Positions 31,230 to 37,454 of a stretch of DNA of 64,000 bases are shown here, piece after piece. The notes under the pieces are model-generated. The model ran no database searches, was not told the DNA's origin, and was given only the letters and a program-made list of their open reading frames with translations. Each line of letters starts with the position of its first letter. Within the stretch, counting starts at the first letter, position 1. The translations under genes and the position numbers were made by a program. The DNA comes from Caldithrix abyssi DSM 13497 (GTDB taxonomy: Bacteria > Electryoneota > AABM5-125-24 > Hatepunaeales > Hatepunaeaceae). The stretch lies in NCBI GenBank assembly GCA_945865405.1, contig CAMBDS010000002.1:66368-130367 (forward strand), in the 5' to 3' direction.

Positions 31230-32204
31230 ATGCCCTCAGACGTAGAATCCGTAGTTCAACTCAAATCTGCCCGTGACCGCATCGCCGCCGAAATAGGCAA
31301 GGTGATCGTCGGGCAAACCGCAATCGTCGATCAACTGCTGACAGCGATGCTCTCCGGCGGGCACGTCCTGCTGGTCGGCGTTCCGGGCCTTGCCAAAACG
31401 TTGCTCGTCAACAGCCTGGCTCGCGTCCTCGACCTGAAGTTCCAGCGCATCCAGTTCACCCCCGACCTGATGCCGTCCGACATCACCGGCACCGAGGTCA
31501 TCGAAGACGACGTCTCGACCGGCAAAAAAGTCTTCCGGTTCGTCAAAGGCCCGATCTTCGCGCAGATACTGCTCGCCGACGAGATCAACCGGACGCCACC
31601 AAAGACTCAGGCGGCACTCCTGCAAGCGATGCAGGAACATGCCGTCACCGCCGCCGGGCAGACGTTCAAGCTGGAGGAGCCGTTCTTCGTGATGGCAACC
31701 CAGAACCCCATCGAACAGGAGGGAACCTACCCCCTGCCCGAAGCGCAGCTTGACCGGTTCATGTTCAGCTTGTGGCTCGACTATCCTTCCGAAGCCGAAG
31801 AGCGCGAGATCGTACGGACGACAACATCCGGCTATAACCCCGAACTGGCGCAAGTCATCAACGCGAAGCAGATTGGCGAGTTGCAAGCGTTGGCGCGACG
31901 AGTGCCGGTGTCGGATCATGTGGTCAATTTTGCAGTTGAGCTGGTGCGGAAAACTCGCCCAGGGCAAGCCGACACACCGGACTTCATCAAGCAGTGGATC
32001 ACCTGGGGCGCAGGGCCAAGAGCCTCTCAGTACATGATTATCGGCGCGAAAACGCGGGCGATTCTGGATGGAAGGCCGACACCAGACGTTGAGGACGTTC
32101 GGGCGATGGCGACTTCGGTGCTTCGGCATCGGCTGGTGACAAGCTTCAATGCGGCGGCGGAGGGAATCACTTCGGTTGATATTGTGGAGAGGTTGTTGAA
32201 GTAG
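31230..32204 (+). CDS. MoxR-family AAA+ ATPase
   Basis: 324 residues. Walker A GVPGLAKT, Walker B LLADEINRTPPKTQAALLQA, sensor 1 FFVMATQNPIEQEGTYPLPE and AQLDRFMF arginine-finger region are typical of the MoxR subgroup (RavA/MoxR), chaperone-like ATPases that assist assembly of vWA-domain proteins. ATG 31230. In many genomes it precedes DUF58 and BatA genes; here those are absent and the BatA-like gene is at 13838. A long open frame on the opposite strand is a shadow. Confidence 0.92.
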   Translation: MPSDVESVVQLKSARDRIAAEIGKVIVGQTAIVDQLLTAMLSGGHVLLVGVPGLAKTLLVNSLARVLDLKFQRIQFTPDLMPSDITGTEVIEDDVSTGKKVFRFVKGPIFAQILLADEINRTPPKTQAALLQAMQEHAVTAAGQTFKLEEPFFVMATQNPIEQEGTYPLPEAQLDRFMFSLWLDYPSEAEEREIVRTTTSGYNPELAQVINAKQIGELQALARRVPVSDHVVNFAVELVRKTRPGQADTPDFIKQWITWGAGPRASQYMIIGAKTRAILDGRPTPDVEDVRAMATSVLRHRLVTSFNAAAEGITSVDIVERLLK

Positions 32205-32540
32205 GAGGGAGGGCAGGTTAGTCGAAGAGTTCAGGAGGACGGGTCTCCGCACCGATCCAAACGCTAGACACATAATACTCTCGGCATCGTCACAATGCTG
32301 TCAACCCCTGTCCAGTAACGGTTAGCGCGTGACGATGAGCTTCACTTCCCGTCCATTTATGGCAAGGTACGGCCGACAGTTGTCGGCGTTTGCGTGACTC
32401 CCAATGCAGAGTCATCCTGAACGAAGTGAAGGATATCTGTTTACTCTTCCCGCGAAGGCGGCGAGTCAGTACGACAGACATTCCTGTCTGTCAACTTATT
32501 CACTAAGGCAGTGGGGCGGACAGCCTGTCCGCCTTCAGCA
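32205..32540. other. 336-bp non-coding region with dispersed repeat words
   Basis: No coding frame. It carries GTCATCCTGAACGAAGTGAA (32411-32430), a word also common between genes of many other bacteria as I recall it, and two perfect hairpins: GACAGACA-TTCC-TGTCTGTC (32473-32492) and GGCGGACA-GCC-TGTCCGCC (32515-32533). The second, with its GCAGTGG flank, is mirrored on the other side of the restriction gene. Confidence 0.6.
32473..32533. repeat. Two hairpins left of the restriction gene
   Basis: GACAGACA-TTCC-TGTCTGTC and GGCGGACA-GCC-TGTCCGCC, the latter preceded by GCAGTGG. An inverted counterpart of the second, GGCGGACA-GAA-TGTCCGCC followed by CCACTGC, lies at 36116-36141. Confidence 0.85.
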
Positions 32541-32595
32541 CCACCAGTTTTCCATTCCTGCGTAAGCAGGAGCCGAAGGCCGCGTAGCAATCCAG
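32541..32595. repeat. 55-bp inverted repeat, left copy
   Basis: It begins CCACCAGTTTTCCATTCC and ends GGCCGCGTAGCAATCCAG, and matches the reverse complement of 35914-35968 at 49 of 55 positions. Differences in its internal stem (CCTGC..GCAGG here, CCCGC..GTGGG there) keep pairing possible. It ends 28 bp before the restriction gene start. Confidence 0.9.
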
Positions 32596-34525
32596 ATCGA
32601 GAGTTAAACAGATTGAGTCATTCTTGAGCATTACCTTTATCAAAAGCTATCTTCGTTCACTTGAGCAGACAGCTCAAACGGGCGGTGCCACCGAGCACTC
32701 ATTCCGACCCGCTCTGAAAGCGCTGATTGAAGCATTGGGTACTTCCATCGAAGCACTCAATGAGCCGAAGCGAATCCAGTGTGGCGCTCCAGATTTTCAA
32801 GTCTTCCAAGGCCCTCTGACTACCCGCTTCAGCATCGGGTACATTGAAACAAAAGACCTCGATGACAACCTCGATGAAACAGAGCGTTCCGGTCAACTCA
32901 AGCGCTACAGAAACGAACTCGATAATCTGCTACTGACTGACTACCTAGAGTTTCGTTGGTTCGTCGGAGGGGAACCTCGAAGCAAGGCGTCTCTCGGAAC
33001 ACTTTCTGGTAACCGAATAGTCAAGTCGAAGCAGGGCGAGCAAGATGTCCTGAGTCTTCTCGACCAATTCCTCTCTCACCAACCGCAACCTATCGGTCGC
33101 GCCTCCGATCTGGCAGTCCGAATGGCAAAATTAACTCGAGCCGTTAAAGACATTATCGCCGAATCGTTCAGAAATAGACAGGCTACTCCGGGACTTGTCG
33201 GACTTTATAACTCATTTAAGGTAGAGCTAATTCCGCACCTTGGCGATGATCAATTCGCCGATATGTTTGCCCAAACCCTTGCCTATGGCCTGTTTGCTGC
33301 CCGTGTACACCATCAATCCGGCACATTCCAACTCAATGCCGCTGTCAGCAATATCCCACGCACAATGCCTTTCCTTCAAGAGCTATTTCATCATGTGACA
33401 GGCCCAAGCTTCTACGATGAACCTTATTCAGGATACATTGAAGACTTGACCCAGGTTCTTGCCAAGTCAAATATGGAGAATGTGCTCGCAGATTTTGGCA
33501 AGCAAGCACGAGACAAAGACCCGGTGCTACATTTCTATGAGACGTTTCTTGCGGCTTACGACCCTGCCGAACGAGAGCGTCGCGGCGTCTATTATACGCC
33601 TGAATCGGTAGTCTCATACATAGTGCGTTCGGTTGACAGCCTTCTGAAATCTGACTTCAATTGTAATGAAGGCATGGCAGATAAATCTAAGTTTGGCAAG
33701 GGCAAGAACGATACACACCGCGTCCTGATGCTCGATCCAGCCTGTGGAACCGGATCGTTTCTCTATGGAATTATCGACCAACTGAGAACCGGTTTTGCGG
33801 ATTCGGGAAATGCAGGTGAATGGAAAGACTACGTAATCGACCATCTTATTCCGAGACTTTTTGGCTTCGAACTTTTGATGGCTCCCTATGCGGTTGCACA
33901 TTTTAAGCTCGGCTTGCAACTTGAGGGGCGACACCTTTCACCGGAACAACAGAAAATCTGGGGCGCTGATCTAAAGAAATCGACCCGGCTAAACGTATAT
34001 CTCACCGATACGCTCGAACGCTCGCAGACAATTAAGCATACTCTCACTTTCGGGGGATCAAACTTTCTCGCTGATGAAACAAACGCCGCTGCCGATGTAA
34101 AAAGCAAGTTCCCGATTATGGTCGTGCTTGGCAACCCGCCTTATTCCGGTCATTCAGCAAGTAAATCCGAATGGATTCGCAAATTGGTTGACGATTATAA
34201 ATGGGTGAACGGCTTGCCTCTTGGCGAAAAGAACCCGAAGTGGCTTCAGGACGATTACGTCAAATTCATCCGCTTTGGCCAATGGCGCATCGAGCAGACC
34301 GGGCAAGGGATACTCGCCTTTATTACCAATCACGCTTATCTTGACAATCCAACCTTTCGCGGGATGCGGCAGAGCCTGATGAAGACATTTGACGACATCT
34401 ACATCCTCAACCTGCACGGCAACGCCAAGAAGAAGGAGAAAGCCCTCGACGGTGGCAAGGACGAGAATGTCTTCGACATTCAGCAGGGCGTTGCGATTGG
34501 GATATTTGTGAAGAGACCCCGTAAC

Positions 34526-34618
34526 GCCGCCGTCCCGGCGGCAGGTAGCACCGGCGTCCCGCCGGAGTCTGATCTGAGCCGTCAAGATGACGGCGATACG
34601 AGCCGGCGGGACGCCGGC
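34526..34618. repeat. Four hairpins inside the restriction gene coding sequence
   Basis: GCCGCCG-TCC-CGGCGGC (34526-34542), CCGGCG-TCC-CGCCGG (34551-34565), GCCGTCA-AGA-TGACGGC (34578-34594) and GCCGGCG-GGA-CGCCGGC (34602-34618). All have perfect arms and three-base loops. The frame is kept and encodes a low-complexity stretch (NAAVPAAGSTGVPPESDLSR, then QDDGDTSRRDAGATV) between methylase and specificity domains. Confidence 0.9.
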
Positions 34619-34935
34619 GCTACCGTCCACTTCGACGAAATCTTCGGCAAACGCGACTCGAAAGACCAGTATCTCCTTTCCGAGGATATCTCATCAACCG
34701 TATGGAAGACGTTATCCCCCTCCTCGCCGCACTATCTCTTTATACCACAAGATGAAACTCTTCGCACCGAGTATGAAAAGGGTCTGAAAATCAATCAAAT
34801 CTTCCCGGTAAATTCGGTTGGTGTTGTGACGGCAAGAGACGACCTCACTATTGCCTTCACGAAAGAGGAGTTGATCGAGAGAGTGCGGAAATTCGTAAGC
34901 CTCAAACCGGAAGAGGCGAGAGAAAAATTTGATTT

Positions 34936-34942
34936 GGGGGGG
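34936..34942 (+). repeat. G7 tract at the restriction gene frame break
   Basis: Seven G between TTT and ATG. Reading in the upstream frame gives LGGMSEIGKSNGRRKI and stop; with one more G the frame runs on as LGGDVRDWKVEW into the specificity domain. Confidence 0.85.
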
Positions 34943-35913
34943 ATGTCAGAGATTGGAAAGTCGAATGGGCGCAGAAAGATCTGATAGCCCGGGATGACTG
35001 GGAGAAAAATATCGTTCCAATCCTTTATCGTCCGTTCGATATTCGGTGGACTGTTTATACCGGGAAATCAAGGGGATTTCTCTGTTATCCTAGAGCGAAG
35101 GTGATGGGGCATATGGTAAATGGAAATATCGGGTTGATGTATTGTAGACAACAGTCTCAATCAGGTGAATGGGAATTGATTAGCGTAACACAATACTTGA
35201 CAGAATCTTGCGCTATTTCAAATAAGACTAAGGAAATTGCTTATGTATCGCCTTTCTTGTTGGAAGGGGTGAACCATAATGTCAAAGCTCGTCTATTTCC
35301 CGATTTGGTGAACTATGAGTATCTTCATTTTTCAAATTCGGATAGGTTGCTAATGTTCTATTCATACGCGACTCTTCATTCTAGGCAGTATCGTCAACGA
35401 TATGCAGAGTTTCTCAAGGGAGATTTTCCGAGAATTCCTCTTACAAAGGATGTTGTTCTTTTTAGAAGACTTGCCGATCTAGGCGGTGAATTGATTGATT
35501 TTCACCTACTGAAATCACCCGATTCTTCTTTCTCAGCAGTTAGCTACCCTGTAGCAGGAACTGACCGAGTTGACAACGGTTTCCCGATGTATGTTGCCCC
35601 CGGGGAAAAAGACTTAATTAGTAGGCCATTCCATACACCTGCACCTCGTGGTAGGGTTTACATCAATCGGCATGAGGGGAATAATGACAATGCTCAGTAT
35701 TTCGAGGGTATTACACCGGAGGCGTGGAATTTCCATATTGGCGGGTATCAAGTGCTGGAGAAGTGGCTGAAGGATCGACGGGGGAGGACACTTAGCGCGG
35801 ATGACCGCGAGCATTACCGCAAGGTCGTCAAGGCGATTGTCGAGACTATCCGGGTTATGAAGGAGATCGACGAGGCGATACCGGGTTGGCCGTTGCCGTA
35901 GGAAACTTTAAAA

Positions 35914-35968
35914 CTGGATTGCTTCGCGGCCTTCGGCTCCCACTTTCGCGGGAATGGAAAGCTGGTGG
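35914..35968. repeat. 55-bp inverted repeat, right copy
   Basis: Reverse complement of 32541-32595 with six differences. It begins CTGGATTGCTTCGCGGCC and ends GGAATGGAAAGCTGGTGG, 12 bp after the restriction gene stop. Confidence 0.9.
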
Positions 35969-36029: not shown

Positions 36030-36134
36030 GACAGGTCGGGACGCCCTGTCCTACTTGTCAAGCGAGGACGGTTAACCTACGCGACAGGTTTGGAAACCTG
36101 TCGTACCGGGGAGATGGCGGACAGAATGTCCGCC
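36030..36134. repeat. Three hairpins right of the restriction gene
   Basis: GACAGG-N9-CCTGTC (36030-36050), CGACAGGTTT-GG-AAACCTGTCG (36082-36103, perfect 10-bp arms) and GGCGGACA-GAA-TGTCCGCC (36116-36134). The last, with its CCACTGC flank, mirrors the element at 32515-32533. Confidence 0.85.
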
Positions 36135-36275
36135 CCACTGCTTGAGGTGGTGATCGGACAATCTATTCGATCACAATTCGATCACACAGTTTCTCTATGC
36201 TGCGCAACGAGTTACGCCACTCTGTGACGCAGTGATCGATTTTTGACTAATTCGACTTTTATTCAGGAAAATTTC

Positions 36276-37454
36276 GTGATTGACCTTAAAGCTACTCAGG
36301 AAGCGATCAAGAAGGCGAGCCTCGACGGCTGGCTGATATACGACTTCCGCGGCTCAAATCCGCTGGTGGAACTGATCGCCGGAAAGAAAGTCTGGACGAC
36401 GCGGCGAGTCTATTACTTCATCCCCGCCAAAGGCGAGCCGACACTGCTCGTCAACAGGCTGGACGCGTCGCATACGGGGGCGCTTCCGGGCGAAAGGCTC
36501 GTCTATACAGACAGGCATCAGTTGGAAGACTTCCTGAAGAAGAGCTTACTTAAGAGCGTCAGGCGGGTAGCGATGGAGTACTCGCCGTTGTGCGAACTGC
36601 CGGTCGTCTCCGTCATCGATGGGGGAACGGTAGAGATGATTCGCTCGACTGGAGTTGAGATTGTCTCCTCGGCGAACATCCAGCAGACGGTTGTGGCAGT
36701 CTGGTCGGACGAAGCATACAAAAACCATTTGGTTGCGTCGAAATTGGTTGGCGGAATCAAGGACAAGGCGTTTGCGCTGATCGGCAGGACTCTGCGCAGT
36801 GGAGGCAGCCTGACCGACCTTGACGTGCAACGATTCATCATGGATCAGTTTGCCGAAGAGGGGCTGGAGACGGATGAACCGCCAGTCGTGGCGACCAACC
36901 AACGATCTGGCGATCCGCACTATGTCCCGACTGAGGCGACGCATTACCCGATCAAGTCCCACGATTGGGTGTTGATCGACCTTTGGGCGAGACAGCCGGG
37001 AGAGAGCAATATCTTCAGCGATATTACGTGGGTGGGGGTCATTGGCCGCGATCCGTCGATCAGGGAACACGATGTGTTCATTACCGTTAAGCAGGGACGG
37101 GACAAGGCGATTGAGTTGATGAAGGAAATTCACCGCTCAGGGCGGCTGGCGCAAGGCTGGGAGATCGACACGGCGACCCGGAAGATCATCAGCGACAAAG
37201 GGTTTGGGGAGTACTTCTTTCACCGGACGGGACACTCGCTTAGCCCGGGGAAGTTTGTTCATGGGACAGGGGTCAACCTTGACGATTATGAGACTCACGA
37301 CACGCGAGAGATCATCCCGGGGGTTGGTTGGACGGTTGAGCCGGGGATTTACTTGCCGGAGTTTGGGTGTCGGCTTGAGATCAACGGACGGATGACCGCC
37401 GGAGGGCCTGAGGTGACATCGGTGGTGCAGCAGGATATCATTGTTGAGTCTTAG
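36276..37454 (+). CDS. M24-family metallopeptidase (Xaa-Pro aminopeptidase-like)
   Basis: 392 residues from GTG 36276, chosen because AGGAAA lies six to seven bases upstream; TTG 36243 is the longer alternative. An N-terminal creatinase-like domain (WLIYDFRGSNPLVELIAGKK) precedes a pita-bread catalytic domain with metal ligands in VLIDLWARQPG (Asp), FSDITWVG (Asp), FHRTGHSL (His), EPGIYLP (Glu) and GCRLEINGRM (Glu). The ligand set looks complete, so it is probably an active dinuclear metal aminopeptidase or dipeptidase. Substrate not known. It stands alone between repeat-rich gaps. Confidence 0.88.
   Translation: MIDLKATQEAIKKASLDGWLIYDFRGSNPLVELIAGKKVWTTRRVYYFIPAKGEPTLLVNRLDASHTGALPGERLVYTDRHQLEDFLKKSLLKSVRRVAMEYSPLCELPVVSVIDGGTVEMIRSTGVEIVSSANIQQTVVAVWSDEAYKNHLVASKLVGGIKDKAFALIGRTLRSGGSLTDLDVQRFIMDQFAEEGLETDEPPVVATNQRSGDPHYVPTEATHYPIKSHDWVLIDLWARQPGESNIFSDITWVGVIGRDPSIREHDVFITVKQGRDKAIELMKEIHRSGRLAQGWEIDTATRKIISDKGFGEYFFHRTGHSLSPGKFVHGTGVNLDDYETHDTREIIPGVGWTVEPGIYLPEFGCRLEINGRMTAGGPEVTSVVQQDIIVES

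Follow-up and report, generated by a model that had tools for sequence, protein, structure and literature searches.

The window (the whole 64-kb stretch of DNA analysed) contains a tail-to-tail pair of 55-bp hairpin repeats around a frameshifted Type IIG restriction gene. The repeats belong to a dispersed, structure-conserving family of REP type, and a second tail-to-tail pair in the same genome has an empty site in relatives. Our best reading, to which we give about an even chance, is that defence and toxin-antitoxin genes came into split REP dimers, the repeats not being the ends of a cassette. The CGTC-type REPs form a large class of repeats for which neither a mobilising enzyme nor a cargo is known; an extended REP that twice brackets acquired defence genes, tails inward, would offer a concrete case in which to ask whether REP dimers serve as landing sites in horizontal gene transfer.

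The inverted arrangement of the two copies (Table 1), reported in the preliminary description, was reproduced: 49 of 55 bases are identical (BLAST E ~3e-14 within the 64-kb window), and the arms can be extended to 65 nt at 85% identity. The reported spacing was likewise recovered, with the left arm ending 28 bp before the TTG start codon (32624) and the right arm starting 12 bp past the TAG stop codon (35899-35901). The tail of the left copy, CCAGA, points toward the restriction gene. Compensation within the stem was found at one position, where the left copy has T-A and the right copy C-G, and the stem of the window pair also shows a G-C to G-T wobble. Outside the repeat core both window copies have CCACCAG, which is not expected of a random pair, so the two copies could be matched ends of one unit.

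Table 1. Features at and around the bracketed restriction gene (positions within the window)
Feature	Position	Strand	Remarks
MoxR AAA ATPase, left neighbour	31230..32204	+	
GCAGTGG-GGCGGACA hairpin, other dispersed repeat family	32508..32533	+	outside left copy
Left copy, 55-bp element	32541..32595	+	core 32550-32596; 66.7 bits, covariance model
Type IIG restriction-methyltransferase, N-terminal 786 aa	32624..34984	+	PADLOC PDLC03610, 691 bits
In-frame palindromic repeat within gene, ~30 codons	34520..34624	+	
G7 run, site of -1 frame change	34936..34942	+	
C-terminal part, Type_ISP_C specificity domain, -1 frame	35002..35901 (ORF 35101-35901)	+	1.9e-51
Right inverted copy, 55-bp element	35914..35968	-	69.2 bits, covariance model; tail toward gene
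GCAGTGG-GGCGGACA hairpin, same family	36116..36141	-	outside right copy
M24 peptidase, right neighbour	36243..37454	+	

The bracketed sequence had been described as one restriction gene. It is a Type IIG gene but not a single intact frame, as two ORFs are parted at the G7 run. The N-terminal part contains the N6_Mtase domain and the start of Type_ISP_C, together with a PD-(D/E)xK-like nuclease motif (GAPDF...IETK) read by inspection from the alignment of homologues; further matches of the protein are 7lo5 and LlaBIII. The predicted nuclease, N6 methyltransferase and specificity domain of the Type IIG architecture are all present, but the chain is split by the frameshift. As in the Type IIG/Type ISP-related enzymes (PDLC03610; LlaBIII 4xqk, 7lo5), the N6 methyltransferase is joined to an ISP-type specificity domain; it differs in the frameshift and the in-frame palindromic insert, and no helicase was seen, as expected for a Type IIG enzyme. 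Homologues in four relatives (G002, G008, G018 and G038) are intact across the site matching the G7 run, and the -1 frame change there could reflect decay or phase variation, or else an error in the assembly. The in-frame palindromic repeat is missing at that place in five of six aligned homologues, the sixth (G002) having a different, repeat-like insert in the same loop. Counting the palindromic repeat itself, the genome contains 14 matches to it, one of the other 13 being its own inverted half; Rickettsia palindromic elements are likewise repeats inserted in frame in genes. The GC content of the gene is 48.7%, versus 55.8% in the 3 kb to its right and 49.9% in the 3 kb to its left, the latter equal to the GC content of the insert between the window copies. 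The restriction gene was probably imported by horizontal acquisition.

A covariance model built from ten copies identified 12 strong copies of the 55-bp element core in the 2.76-Mb genome, nearly all of them intergenic and one within a 575-aa ORF, and a 25-base core gave 13 genome matches versus none for a reversed control; reading of the genome covered contig C2 and selected loci. A search for copies at the ends of other genes, proposed in the preliminary description, revealed a second gene-bracketing pair, but most copies are single and dispersed. Over ten genomic copies 91% of the cells in the stem are paired and changes on both sides maintain pairing, with a covariation score of 0.215 versus 0.137 for shuffled and at most 0.062 for slid controls. 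Exact matches to the core were found neither in IMG/VR viral contigs nor in 84,980 other genomes, a set from which the records closest to the window genome may be omitted, and no known structured RNA in Rfam matched at up to E = 1. Two tandem copies of the element lie on contig C6 (C6:96856-97234; L082 2857-3235), in a 332-bp local duplication between two secreted-protein genes. Two loci, L092 (C38:12901) and L015 (C31:26245), have in common a MazE-like antitoxin frame and the repeats that follow it, a duplicated gene-plus-repeat unit.

The element consists of a hairpin, ATTCCYGC-NNNN-GCRGGA, an 18-nt insert, GCCGAAGGCCGYGAARCA, and an ATCCAGA tail. A shorter hairpin, CGTCATTCCCGCG..GCGGGAATCCAGA, is present in family members and is of the CGTC-REP type (Di Nocera et al. 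2013, PMC3733652), a group that includes dRS3 of Neisseria and RPE-4 and RPE-6 of Rickettsia conorii. Seen in this way, the 55-bp element is this shorter hairpin with the 18-nt insert placed between GGGA and ATCCA, close to the 3' foot of the stem; among distinct sequences fitting a strict pattern, the insert at this point measures 0 nt (n = 11), 18 nt (n = 3), 27 nt (n = 3) or 8 nt (n = 1). In common with CGTC REPs, the element has AT that may form the stem foot, a 4-base loop and an unpaired CCA tail (ATCCAGA or ATCCAGT in the two window copies and the majority of sister copies), and is dispersed in multiple, mostly intergenic copies, some within genes and often in dimers. It differs in that the insert displaces the stem foot: six contiguous pairs close a 4-nt loop and the two A-T pairs of the foot could form only by bridging the insert. 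The stem of CGTC REPs has 8-9 bp and begins with AT, and their loop has 4-5 nt (PMC3733652). A further difference lies in the dimers, which in this genome are tail-to-tail and in two cases enclose kilobases of accessory genes. The window copies read TTTCC-ATTCC, with TTTCC in place of the terminal CGTC tag (or its forms TGTC and CCTC), which is found in sister copies at C1:145503 (CGTC) and at C1:152271 and C10:28586 (TGTC); since the window copies lack the tag, they are a derived variant of the CGTC REP and not strict members of the class.

The short hairpin forms three close dimers in the genome, each of them tail-to-tail, with spacings of 42, 57 and 69 bp. The 55-bp type, with its 12 copies, forms two tail-to-tail pairs, one of 2755 bp on contig C10 and the window pair of 3317 bp, both enclosing cargo that looks foreign; with 11 copies placed at random, the chance of at least two tail-to-tail pairs within 3.6 kb is ~4e-4. 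The C10 pair, located between nuoK and a lipoprotein gene, surrounds 2.8 kb of cargo made up of HEPN, zinc-ribbon and unassigned small genes. In four relatives (G001, G003, G006 and G008) the lipoprotein gene directly follows nuoK, element and cargo both being missing. These empty-site comparisons were made with relatives of other genera, and no empty dimer of the 55-bp type was found at the window or nuoK place among the relatives compared. The nuoK junction of other relatives contains different accessory genes, for example nucleotidyltransferase- and methylase-like ORFs (assigned by eye) in G013 and G017; the variety of accessory genes following nuoK in relatives (L080, L201-L224) indicates that this is an insertion hot spot, whether the element is present or not.

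The two ends of the element have different neighbours. Two copies have their tails toward the Type IIG gene and two toward the C10 island; elsewhere tails face a HicBA-like/ParE locus, a Bro-N/DinD-like gene (PDC-S13) and an antitoxin-like ORF. Heads are directed at core genes, among them those for polyprenyl synthetase, MoxR, M24, NuoK and PyrG, or at a RAYT; HicA, NuoK, PyrG and the 56-aa antitoxin were identified by eye only. Defence or toxin-antitoxin genes lie on the tail side of 7 of 12 copies versus the head side of 0 of 12 (p 0.005) or, counted by loci, 5 of 9 versus 0 of 9 (p 0.03), counts that are suggestive only, since they were made after the pattern had been noticed. Over all copies, a GC jump at element tails was not significant as a general marker (p 0.13-0.18). 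Some control loci with the short hairpin are also near antitoxin genes (HicB, MazE-like), with no consistent side, so nearness by itself says little.

These data have led us to propose a model in which the two window repeats would be lineage-restricted extended palindromic repeats, a variant of the CGTC-REP type, forming a tail-to-tail dimer comparable to those of the short hairpin in this genome. A horizontally acquired Type IIG gene would have come to rest in the dimer spacer, and a gene so placed would have a hairpin at each end with the tail toward the cargo. We infer that the cargo came into REP-dimer spacers, which may be tolerated, perhaps break-prone, landing sites for incoming genes, either by illegitimate recombination or by recombination with repeats that already bordered the incoming DNA. 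On this model the repeats would be passive scars or landing sites and would not bound an autonomous element; the Type IIG gene would now be decaying.

The same bracket could have been assembled by independent arrivals, in which the gene came first and two dispersed repeats later settled in the flanking gaps, or were homogenised there by gene conversion, the bracket having no role in the history of the gene. This is a possibility we rate as somewhat unlikely. Two tail-to-tail brackets among 12 copies argue against it, as do the accessory genes contained in both brackets and faced by tails elsewhere, and the additional CCACCAG shared by the two arms. It is consistent with the crowding of several repeat families, including the outer GGCGGACA hairpins, into the local intergenic gaps, with the predominance of single copies, and with the homologous gene of G008, where a related hairpin accompanies the 3' end but not the 5' end. 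Within the 44-nt core the window arms are no more alike than unrelated copies (86% identity, rank 3 of 36 copy pairs; the nuoK pair ranks 22nd), which fits independent arrivals and speaks against matched cassette ends. The absence of a target duplication has the same bearing: this duplication, which the preliminary description had offered as support for a cassette, was found at neither the window pair nor the nuoK pair, whose 30-nt outer flanks have no 5-mer in common; apart from TTAAA (5 nt) in the inner flanks, the comparison gave no match.

Mobile insertion cassettes and MITE-bounded cassettes carry passenger genes between inverted repeats and have no transposase inside, features that the window bracket shares. 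That a repeat-cargo-repeat unit, comparable to these or to cargo-bearing REPINs, is cut and joined in trans, for example by one of six Y1/RAYT transposases, is nevertheless unlikely in our estimate. Two brackets of equal orientation with different cargo, and the clean absence of repeat and cargo at nuoK in four family members, would be explained by such a unit; a parent insertion sequence with these ends was not found in a comparison covering the RAYT genes, however, the ends show no special match over the core, single ends predominate among the copies, the core has no exact match in IMG/VR viral contigs or the 84,980 genomes, and CGTC REPs are reported to have no dedicated transposase (PMC3733652). 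A stronger form of this idea, in which tail-to-tail extended-REP pairs bound exchangeable defence/toxin-antitoxin cassettes that a trans-acting enzyme excises and inserts as units via their hairpins, as a gene-capture system, seems to us improbable. Of the two shapes suggested in the preliminary description, repeats recruited to both ends of a selfish gene fit better than a cassette moved in trans, given the second tail-to-tail pair around an accessory island with its clean empty site, and the tails that repeatedly face defence or toxin-antitoxin genes; for a cassette, neither a duplication, nor arms more alike over the core than unrelated copies, nor a RAYT gene immediately flanked by the element was found. 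That the repeat is the recombination site of a site-specific module, as in pdif modules or integron cassettes, is very improbable: inverted short sites around toxin-antitoxin or defence genes do recall the Acinetobacter dif modules (PMC6449649, PMC13141974), in which toxin-antitoxin and other accessory genes lie between oppositely oriented sites, but the sites here are 55-bp hairpin repeats with a covarying stem instead of an 11-6-11 site, and no XerC/XerD dif-like site was found in the window at up to three mismatches. By inspection the element is not an integron attC site.

The earlier statement that no transposase is present holds for the interior of the bracket but not for the genome, where six Y1 (RAYT-type) genes occur elsewhere. 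These six genes (Y1_Tnp; L181-L186) each lie beside a palindrome family of their own, such as GTACGACAGACATTCTTGTCTGTC or GTAGTGCCGACATTTGTCGGCAC. The 55-bp element is the nearest flanking palindrome of none of the six, and in this lack of association with a transposase it agrees with CGTC REPs. One copy, C1:152271, lies ~70 bp from a RAYT, a proximity that could favour a mobile cassette, but beyond the RAYT's own palindrome. A RAYT as the cognate enzyme was rejected as direct evidence, since a different palindrome flanks each RAYT. REPINs and REPtrons (Bertels and Rainey 2011, PMC3116915) similarly comprise inverted pairs of short palindromes forming one unit and RAYT genes each with its own flanking palindrome; here, by comparison, the RAYTs are beside other palindromes and the pair spacers carry 2.8-3.3 kb of genes.

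The outer hairpins, noted in the preliminary description as mirrored (32515-32533 and 36116-36134), do exist, but their mirroring means little because they are nearly perfect self-palindromes with ~10 copies dispersed over the genome; the GGCGGACAnnnTGTCCGCC part equals its reverse complement, which leaves GCAGTGG alone to give a direction. Synteny of the M24 gene is not conserved among relatives. In six family relatives moxR adjoins DUF58, a pair that is split in the window genome, so that no empty site can be defined at the window locus. A simple inversion may have split the pair; DUF58 (L256:10064-10990) lies 67 kb from moxR on the opposite strand, 5 bp downstream of terC, at a join without a repeat.
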